59,738 nucleotides of DNA, taken from Hyphomicrobiales bacterium. GTDB lineage: Bacteria > Pseudomonadota > Alphaproteobacteria > Rhizobiales > Methyloligellaceae. The notes beneath the pieces were generated by a model, which worked only from the letters and a program-made list of their open reading frames with translations, was not told where the DNA came from and ran no database searches. The stretch covers positions 1 through 59,738 of the forward strand of contig JAJFHO010000197.1 in NCBI GenBank assembly GCA_021775575.1, read 5' to 3'. Below are positions 3,821-37,746 of this stretch, one piece after another. The position numbers and the translations under genes were made by a program. Each line of letters starts with the position of its first letter. The stretch's first letter is position 1.

Positions 3821-5915
3821 CGGTGCCGGTCGCCCTTGTGCGCGGCGCGCCCGCAAGCGCGCTCATCTGACCCATGACAGCGGATGCCCGGGCTATCGGA
3901 TTTGTCAGGTAAAAATCGGCCACCGCCTGGCCAAAGGCTTTCTTGCCCAGGGCCGCGCGGGCTTTCGACAGCTTTTCAATATCCGCGGCGTCACCGGCCT
4001 CGCGTGCGCCGATATGCGCCAGATGCGGATGCGCGTCATACATGGCGCCGCGCAGCGCCGAAAGGTTGTCATAGGCCAGTGGTTCGCCGGTATGACCGGA
4101 AAGGGCTCTGATTATCGCCCAATCCTCGCGGGCATCGCCGGGCGGGAACGCCGCGCGCTGGGTGAGTTGCGTCCGGCCTTCCATATTGACATAGGTGCCG
4201 CTCTTTTCGGTATAGGCGGCACCGGGCAAAATCACATCGGCGGCCTGCGCGCCGGCGTCGCCATGGGTGCCCTGATAGATCACGAAAGTGTTGCCGAGAT
4301 CCTCCAGGTTGCATTCGTCGGCGCCAAGCAAATAGAGCACGTCGAGTTTCCCCGCTTTCGCCGCGCGCAGAATAGCGGCCGTGTTCAGACCGCCCTTGCC
4401 AGGAACGAAGCCCAGATCGAGCCCGCCGACACGCGCGGCGGCTAAATGCAGGATATTGAACCCGTTGGAGCCCGAAGCAAGCATTCCCGTCGCACTTGCT
4501 ATCTGCGCGGCCAAAGTTGCCACCGCTGCCCCATCGCTCCCCGACAGCGCAGCTTGCCCCAGGATGAGCATTGGCCTCTTGGCGCGCTTGAGAACCCGGT
4601 GGAAAGGATGCTTGCCGGCCGCGACCTGCCTGAGCGTGTCCGGCCCGGCGCCGAGATAGTCATAGTCGTAGGTCAGCGCCGCTTCGCGGCCGATGAGACC
4701 GACCGATAACCCGCCGCGCCGCCAGCGCTCGCGGATACGCGCATTCAGAACCGCCGCCTCGACGCGCGGATTGGTGCCGATCAGCAATATGGCGTCGGCC
4801 TCGTCGATCTCCGCGATGCCGGAATTGAAGAGATAGCTCGCACGTCCTTTTGCGGGATCGAGCGCCGCGCCATCCTGGCGGCAATCCATGTTCGGCGAAC
4901 CGAGCCCCGTCAGGAGATCCTTGAGAGCGAATATCTCTTCCGCGGCCGCGAGATCACCGGCGATCGCGGCTATGCGGTTGCCCGGCGCCTTTTTCAGCCT
5001 GCGCGCGACCGCCGCCAGAGCCTCATCCCAGCTGGCCGGGCGAAGCTTGCCGCCCTTGCGGATATAGGGCTGATCGAGGCGCTGCGTGCGCAGCCCATCC
5101 CAGATGAACCGCGTCTTGTCCGAAATCCACTCCTCATTCACATCGTCATTATTGCGAGGCATGATGCGCATCACTTCCCGGCCGCGCGTGTCAACGCGGA
5201 TATTGCTGCCGAGCGCATCCATCACATCGATGGTTTCCGTCTTCCGCAGCTCCCATGGCCGGGCAGCAAAAGCGTATGGCCGCGATGTCAGGGCGCCCAC
5301 GGGACAAAGATCGATGACATTGCCGGAAAGCTCCGACCTCATGCCCTGCTCCAGATAGGTCGTGATTTCCACATCTTCGCCGCGCCCGATGGCTCCCAGC
5401 TCCTCGACCCCGGCGACTTCGCTCATGAAGCGGACGCAGCGCGTGCAGTGAATGCAGCGCGTCATCATCGTCTTGATCAGCGGCCCGATATTTTTGTCCT
5501 CGACCGCCCTTTTGTTTTCCGCGTAGCGGCTCGCATCCACGCCATATGTCATGGCCTGGTCCTGCAGATCGCACTCACCGCCCTGGTCGCAGATCGGGCA
5601 GTCGAGCGGATGATTGATCAGCAGGAACTCCATCACGCCCTCACGGGCCATCTTGACGGTTTCGGACTTGGTCTGGATCTCCGGCGGGGTGCCGTCGGGA
5701 GCGGGGCGCAGATCGTTCACGCCCAGCGCGCAGGACGCCACCGGTTTCGGCATGCCTGTCACTTCCACCAGGCACATGCGGCAATTTCCCGCGATCGACA
5801 GCCGCTCGTGATAGCAGAAGCGCGGTATCTGCACGCCCGCGGCCTCGCAAGCCTGAATCAGGGTGATCCCGTCTTCGACCTCGATCTCCGTGCCGTCGAT
5901 TATCAGCTTGGGCAT
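3813..5915 (-). CDS. nuoG: NADH-quinone oxidoreductase subunit G
   Basis: Large iron-sulfur subunit of complex I (700 residues). N-terminal ferredoxin-type domain with C34, C45, C48 and C62 for the [2Fe-2S] cluster N1b; a His/Cys motif H102-C106-C109-C115 for N5; C154, C157, C160 and C204 for N4. The rest is a molybdopterin-oxidoreductase-like fold that has lost its cofactor role. The length matches the mitochondrial/alphaproteobacterial NDUFS1 type and not the longer E. coli type. It lies 27 bases after nuoF and overlaps nuoH by 8 bases. Confidence 0.98.
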
Positions 5916-36762: not shown

Positions 36763-36847
36763 AGAACTTCCGCGATTTTGAATGACCCCGCATAGGCTAG
36801 CGTTGTTGGAATGGATAAAATAAAAAAAGCTAAGTCATTGAAAGTAG

Positions 36848-36925
36848 TGGCGGGAGTGACGGGACTCGAACCCGCGGCCTCTGGCGTGACAGGCCAGCGC
36901 TCTAACCAAACTGAGCTACACCCCC
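36848..36925 (-). tRNA. tRNA-Asp (GTC)
   Basis: Cloverleaf on the minus strand: 7-bp acceptor GGGGGTG/CACTCCC with one G-U pair, anticodon loop CTGTCAC in a GGC-rich stem, T-arm GGGTTCGAGTCCC, and an encoded GCCA end. Confidence 0.96.
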
Positions 36926-37056
36926 AAAAAATAAAGTCCACTCTTGCGGAAACGCCCGTGTGTAGGGCAGCCCTCCGGTCAAGTCAAGCAGGTCGCGAAT
37001 GGTTTGTATTTCGGGGCTCCGCAACTGATTTCAATCGCCTCACTAACCGGCTTTCG

Positions 37057-37485
37057 CTAGCAGGACTTTCCAAGTGTCGCAACACAACCGAGACCCTTCA
37101 AGGTCCCCTTTCCGACCTTGCCGGCGCCTTTCACAACACCCTTGCCCAACTCCGCGGTCCCCTCGAGCGCCCCCTTGCCGAGCTTGCCGGCGCCTTTCAC
37201 GACATGGCCCTTGGTGACTTCCGTGGTTCCCTCCACGACGCCCTCGCCGACTTTTCCGGCGCCTTTCACGACGCCCTTGGCTGCAACGCCTGTACCTATC
37301 ACCGCGCCCTTGCCCGTTTCAACCGCACCTTCCGCGGTCCCCTCGACGGCGCCAGCCACCGGACCGGATTGCTGCGCAAGGTGAAATGATTGCACGCCAG
37401 GCACTGCATCGTTAGACGTGCCAGCCGCCGAAACAGGCGTTACGATCGCCGTCAACGCCACTACAGATGCGGATATAACCGACAT
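37057..37485 (-). CDS. Exported protein made of 11-residue Gly/Lys/Val repeats
   Basis: 142 residues: signal peptide (about 1-21, cleavage after SAA), a short linker, then from about residue 60 a row of 11-residue units of the pattern G-x-x-x-G-x-x-x-x-x-K/E (GAVIGTGVAAK, GVVKGAGKVGE, GVVEGTTEVTK, GALEGTAELGK, GVVKGAGKVGK; one unit has an extra His). Two Cys lie near the C-terminus (GCVATLGKSC). Hendecad repeats of this kind form amphipathic helices on membranes in synucleins, LEA proteins and apolipoproteins; that parallel is structural inference. Ribosome site AAGGAA 8 bases before the ATG. Its own small transcription unit between tRNA genes. I do not recognise a named family. Confidence 0.75.
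   Translation of the reverse strand: MSVISASVVALTAIVTPVSAAGTSNDAVPGVQSFHLAQQSGPVAGAVEGTAEGAVETGKGAVIGTGVAAKGVVKGAGKVGEGVVEGTTEVTKGHVVKGAGKLGKGALEGTAELGKGVVKGAGKVGKGTLKGLGCVATLGKSC
37087..37290. repeat. In-gene tandem repeat of 66-69 bp
   Basis: The 14-base core CCGGCGCCTTTCAC recurs at 37121, 37187 and 37256, giving units of 66 and 69 bp (22-23 codons, two 11-mers each). The spacing keeps the reading frame of the exported repeat protein. Confidence 0.8.
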
Positions 37486-37587
37486 TTTACAGTTCCTTCC
37501 AAGGTCAATGCCTAATCTGCCCAGCCGTTCAGGAGTGTAACCCCTTTCGGCGGCGGAAGCAGCGGTTCATTTTACAAGCAAAGAATT

Positions 37588-37663
37588 TGGTGGGCGGTGC
37601 AGGGATCGAACCTACGACCTCCTGGGTGTAAACCAGGCGCTCTTCCAGCTGAGCTAACCGCCC
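37588..37663 (-). tRNA. tRNA-Val (TAC)
   Basis: Minus-strand cloverleaf: acceptor GGGCGGT/ACCGCCC, anticodon stem CCTGG/CCAGG around TTTACAC, T-arm AGGTTCGATCCCT, encoded CCA. Confidence 0.97.
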
Positions 37664-37713: not shown

Positions 37714-37746
37714 AAAAAAGAGCCCCGCCAAAACAATGGCGGGGCT
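37714..37746 (-). terminator. Rho-independent terminator of the HU gene
   Basis: 9-bp perfect stem AGCCCCGCC/GGCGGGGCT (37721-37729 with 37738-37746), loop 8, followed on the minus strand by CTTTTTT. It lies 36 bases past the HU stop and upstream of tRNA-Val. Confidence 0.93.

Follow-up and report, generated by a model that had tools for sequence, protein, structure and literature searches.

The window analyzed here, a stretch of 59,738 nucleotides from a Hyphomicrobiales bacterium, contains a small gene that fills the interval between a tRNA-Val and a tRNA-Asp gene, downstream of clpX, lon and hupB as read from the sequence, with all of these genes on the minus strand (Table 1). The initial annotation had described its product as an exported 11-mer repeat protein with a signal peptide, and this was confirmed by our reading of the ORF, by the tandem array, by homologues and, at the sequence level, by the export signal. 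The start codon is an ATG with GGAAGG directly 5′ of it, and the ORF (37057..37485) has no other in-frame ATG, GTG or TTG start. The protein is composed, in order, of the signal peptide, a linker, the 11-residue units and the C-terminal CVATLGKSC. Cleavage of the signal peptide is likely to occur between VSA and AG, as judged by eye. Its N-region carries no Lys or Arg; nearly all homologues have K/R there (MR, MIR or MKR).

Table 1. Features of the repeat gene and its flanks (positions are those of the window)
Feature	Position	Strand	Basis or remark
CDS, exported 11-mer repeat protein	37057..37485	-	142 aa + stop; homologues, dN/dS in relatives
Shine-Dalgarno-like GGAAGGAAC	37492..37500	-	from sequence
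Signal peptide, residues 1-20, MSVISASVVALTAIVTPVSA	37426..37485	-	by sequence; homologues have corresponding ones
Tandem 11-residue units, residues 58-133	37087..37314	-	Tandem Repeats Finder, autocorrelation, unit comparison
CX7C module CVATLGKSC, residues 134-142	37060..37086	-	T, L/F, G and both Cys conserved family-wide
tRNA-Val(TAC), upstream flank	37588..37663	-	
tRNA-Asp(GTC), downstream flank	36848..36925	-	
Terminator-like hairpin after hupB	37721-37746		
Terminator-like hairpin preceding tRNA-Asp	36937-36950		

The tRNA-Val/tRNA-Asp interval also holds the repeat gene in the genomes G005 and G055, as it does in G000. In most relatives, only a short interval separates the two tRNA genes, and the repeat gene sits elsewhere in the genome. 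Because G055 lies outside the window's family and an unrelated Cys-rich region precedes the repeats in its protein, the common position suggests either an old location followed by losses and moves or repeated insertion. When the interval of the window (36848-37663) was compared with those of relatives (L084-L111), it was often under 300 nt in the latter, but as judged by eye it holds a GIY-YIG-like ORF in G003 and encodes a Sel1-like repeat protein in G016. Given this variable content, the interval may be a site at which single genes are gained and lost.

The repeat array and its periodicity

The strict tandem run comprises seven units, in the order GKGAVIGTGVA, AKGVVKGAGKV, GEGVVEGTTEV, TKGHVVKGAGKL, GKGALEGTAEL, GKGVVKGAGKV and GKGTLKGLG, and an extra degenerate unit lies at residues 43-53. 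Six near-identical 11-residue units had originally been counted; the 11-mer array stood, but the strict units number seven and one of them, TKGHVVKGAGKL, has 12 residues owing to an inserted His94. Tandem Repeats Finder reported the array at 37105-37279, with a period of 69 and 77% matches, and reported no other array in the window. The lag-11 residue autocorrelation of the protein was 0.28 compared with 0.14 after shuffling, a value that 0 of 1000 shuffles reached. Units rich in K and units rich in E partly alternate, which gives rise to a 22/23-residue (66/69 bp) super-repeat. The repeat copies that we compared are 69-75% identical in DNA and differ at both synonymous and nonsynonymous positions. 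Therefore, the duplication is not very recent, and the "recent" internal duplication initially proposed was overstated.

Across 74 units of the family, the consensus was [G/V]-K-G-V-V-K-G-[A/T]-G-[T/E/K/Q]-V, with G3 in 95% and G7 in 98% of the units, percentages that lean upward as the units were gathered by a consensus-based score. Positions 2, 6 and 10 are polar, and positions 4, 5, 8 and 11 are hydrophobic; plotted at 98.2 degrees per residue, the two sets lie opposite each other and the G3/G7 stripe adjoins the polar face. The hydrophobic moment peaked at 96.5-98.5 degrees in 12 of 14 members (98.2 degrees for an 11/3 helix), and shuffles rarely reached such a moment in 11 of those 12, while G025 and G350 had no significant moment. 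In the window protein, the halves N- and C-terminal to His94 gave maxima at 98.5 and 98.0 degrees, respectively, and the insertion rotates the hydrophobic face by about 100 degrees. The family shares with synuclein its tandem 11-mers and their 11/3 amphipathic periodicity.

The family fractions of hydrophobic, aromatic and charged residues are 0.37, 0.009 and 0.20, next to published values of 0.47, 0.02 and 0.24 for alpha-synuclein and 0.35, 0.002 and 0.15 for perilipin-4 (PMC5889406, Table 1). In an approximate comparison with that table, made with our own script and the Fauchere-Pliska scale, moment and composition fall within the range of exchangeable lipid-binding 11-mer amphipathic helices, a functional class that includes those of synuclein, perilipin and apolipoprotein. 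Net charge is positive in 12 of the 14 members, and the mature window protein, with a GRAVY of 0.06, is not hydrophilic.

Distribution and conservation of the family

A single-sequence search (E<=0.01) returned matches in 25 of 61 genomes, and a 14-member profile (E<=0.001) did so in 27 of the 30 genomes of the window's family (Methyloceanibacter relatives, Hyphomicrobiales). The full plan of signal peptide, 11-mers and C-terminal C..TLG..C was found in 18 of these 30, including the window's own genome; this count comprises proteins read individually and leaves out Cys-less matches (G018, G020 and G026 were read). The latter three genomes, of genus g3, encode exported 11-mer-like proteins (DGAAQGTVGAAKGAGEGAVDAGKSAVEG...) without C-terminal Cys, which are either related or convergent. 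The three elements occur together in homologues of several genera, and beyond the window's family the plan, with its C-terminus, recurs in three genomes of the order (G055, G105 and G350). No additional match came from 385 genomes sampled across the class, and 398 genomes sampled across the phylum added one, which ends before the C-terminus. Scanning contig records with the profile gave four matches, two from Methyloceanibacter sp. and two from Hyphomicrobiales bacterium. An earlier contig scan had given no match, probably because low-complexity masking, which abolishes almost all cross-matches, removes the repeat; tblastn against plasmids also gave no match, and low-complexity filtering may conceal matches there. 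Pfam and NCBIfam returned nothing for the window protein up to E 1 and only scattered weak matches for the 14 members (Senescence, 0.014; PA0050_fam, 0.0056), which we did not take as real. This is an undescribed and taxonomically narrow protein family, without a Pfam or NCBIfam model.

Within the protein, conservation is highest in the C-terminal module. The two C-terminal Cys pointed out in the initial annotation proved to be a conserved family feature, as every member of the core alignment has exactly two Cys, with CX7C spacing throughout except for CX8C in G012. The repeat number, which it had suggested counting among homologues, does vary, with 3 to 11 units among members. Within genus g2 the protein differs little in length (115-118 aa), and the repeat number thus shifts on the scale of genera. 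Two further arrangements were observed. In G055 (C51, about 4057-4700, minus strand; L014/L074), a Cys-rich N-terminal region (VEYCVRCVSPQATNVC...) is joined to 11-mers and C..TLG..C in a domain fusion. G008 carries a second small exported repeat protein, the Arg/Gly-rich VGRGTARAGRGVARGAETAGRGVGRG, about 2 kb from the first (C6, about 50610; L069 7608-7976).

A nucleotide comparison covering genus g2 and G027 gave dN/dS values of 0.04-0.32, and the protein sequence is therefore under purifying selection. This result bears on whether the ORF could be spurious or a repeat artifact, with the plus strand as the true coding strand, since a plus-strand ORF of 192 aa (36811..37389) overlaps the gene. 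However, the plus ORF runs through tRNA-Asp, whereas in relatives it is the minus frame that shows these dN/dS values and conserves the signal peptide and the C-terminus. The spurious or antisense ORF was rejected by the selection pattern in the minus frame and is almost certainly wrong; ORF 37057..37485 is a genuine protein-coding gene that belongs to a real family. The plus ORF mirrors the repeats (GAFHDALADL) and is an antisense by-product of repeat composition.

Resemblance to synuclein and a putative mechanism

When the family profile was compared with 177,635 PDB sequences, alpha-synuclein was the top match (E 0.0017; 81 residues, ungapped; 8zlp_A residues 10-90), with a correction for composition bias as large as the score. 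Because of this large correction, a reversed-alignment control was run for composition and periodicity. Synuclein was absent from the PDB matches of the reversed profile, the best of which had an E value of 0.55, so the residue order within the unit is common to both proteins, beyond composition. A single-sequence PDB search with the window protein gave no match. The Pfam synuclein model (PF01387) matched nothing at E<=10 in the genome that holds the window and nothing over the cut-off in 30 genomes; therefore, we regard the resemblance as convergence, not membership, and convergence with no sign of common descent is the most likely reading of the sequences. The acidic, disordered C-terminal tail of synuclein is absent, and in its place lies the CX7C module, which is not acidic. 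The initial annotation had proposed a synuclein/LEA architecture. Its synuclein half was borne out by the 98-degree periodicity, the top PDB profile match, the reversed-profile control and the composition; its LEA half was not, given the GRAVY value and the lack of a match to any LEA model. A synuclein-like membrane-helix architecture is thus well supported as far as sequence goes. Our literature search, which covered open-licence papers, found no bacterial synuclein-like protein.

Overall, with somewhat better than even confidence, we infer an exported protein that forms a lipid-induced amphipathic helix on an envelope membrane and bears a disulfide-loop cap; helix, location, disulfide and purpose are all inferred in this model. 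The Sec-exported chain would be largely unfolded in water. On contact with lipid, much as alpha-synuclein and perilipin-4 do, it would become a single long 11/3 amphipathic helix. On this helix, Val/Ala/Thr at positions 4, 5, 8 and 11 would make up a shallow hydrophobic face that lacks bulky residues, and positions 2, 6 and 10 would line a face that is mainly cationic. The near-invariant Gly 3 and Gly 7 (GxxxG) would form a stripe that could pack on a neighboring helix. Weak contacts would sum along the array, so affinity would be set by repeat number. Since the protein is exported, it would be placed outside the inner membrane or inside the outer membrane; in the periplasm or outside the cell, it might occupy the periplasm-facing leaflet of either membrane, or vesicles. 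The Cys pair would be oxidized outside the cytosol, and the CX7C disulfide loop would cap or orient the helix end. The purpose may be to coat or stabilize an envelope surface. Weak helices of the synuclein and perilipin-4 kind are reported to be unfolded in water and helical in trifluoroethanol and to bind lipid by many weak contacts, with length setting the affinity (PMC5889406).

AlphaFold2 predicted the window protein with a mean pLDDT of 47 and helices at residues 65-89 and 104-136, and the G003 relative with a mean pLDDT of 41 and almost no helix. Such low confidence in a prediction would fit a conditionally folded chain and, equally, a disordered one. The main difficulties for the helix model are the high Gly content, which at 27% speaks against a helix, and the shortest members of the family, whose repeats of about 33 residues (3 units) are below the 66 aa of Plin4 fragments that showed no droplet binding (PMC5889406). 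These shortest members may depend on the C-terminal module or on self-association by way of the GxxxG stripe.

The near-invariant G3xxxG7 of each unit would also suit a glycine-zipper protein that self-assembles on the cell surface, as a helix bundle or in an amyloid-like form, and is possibly bacteriocin-like, as are Caulobacter CdzC/CdzD. The window family is exported, cationic and alphaproteobacterial, and CdzC/D are small Gly-rich surface proteins (PMC5380434). However, the signal peptide is of the Sec type by sequence, compared with a Cdz leader ending in GG/GA/GS, and no type I secretion or immunity gene was recognized in the neighborhoods that we read. Additionally, most units have K/E/R at positions 2, 6 and 10, whereas the zippers of Cdz proteins are defined as uninterrupted by Pro or charge (PMC5380434), and a single gene is under purifying selection, all of which makes this explanation unlikely. 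Alternatively, the protein could be a flexible Gly-rich spacer or envelope linker, with CX7C as the working part and the repeat providing reach only. A spacer with a working CX7C end deserves consideration because the C-terminus is so well conserved; the freedom of repeat number, from 3 to 11, and the different Cys-rich region ahead of the repeats in G055 would agree with it. Nevertheless, the strict 98-degree amphipathic pattern seen in distant members would be unnecessary in a spacer, and we judge this role improbable. An LEA-like or hydrophilin-like periplasmic protectant against drying or salt would share the 11-residue repeats, the high Gly content and the likely disorder, but a GRAVY of about 0 and the absence of an LEA model match in Pfam render it quite improbable.

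Returning to the amphipathic helix, we propose more specifically, and only tentatively, with confidence a little short of even, that a synuclein/perilipin-type helix evolved independently in these bacteria, that it is periplasmic and anchored or oriented by a disulfide, and that it coats and stabilizes envelope membranes or vesicles with an affinity tuned by repeat number. If true, this would represent an unusual convergence on a synuclein-type design outside the cytosol. To our knowledge, work on synuclein-type 11-mer helices has dealt almost entirely with animal proteins. A bacterial series that occurs in nature and runs from 3 to 11 units, with one consensus and a fixed cap, would provide a direct handle on the length-dependence of lipid binding.

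Among known systems, LEA 11-mer proteins share the 11-residue period and probable disorder in water, whereas the window family is exported, Gly/Val-rich and not hydrophilic, and matches no LEA model. Caulobacter CdzC/CdzD are likewise alphaproteobacterial, small and Gly-rich, and are located in the envelope or at the surface (PMC5380434), but their type I secretion leader, their zippers without charged residues and the immunity in their gene cluster were not seen in the window family. By published description, the 33-mer (3 x 11) region of perilipin-4 is built of similar Gly/Val/Thr-rich 11-mers with nearly no aromatics, a net positive charge and a low hydrophobic moment (PMC5889406); it is cytosolic, sits on lipid droplets and spans about 1000 residues, whereas the family described here is exported, with mature chains of 42-142 residues. 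The N-terminal 11-mers of alpha-synuclein are alike in their amphipathic units, in residue order, in extent (about 80-90 residues) and in being rich in Gly, Val and Lys with few aromatics. Compared with alpha-synuclein, the window family is bacterial, exported and richer in Gly, and it ends in CX7C.
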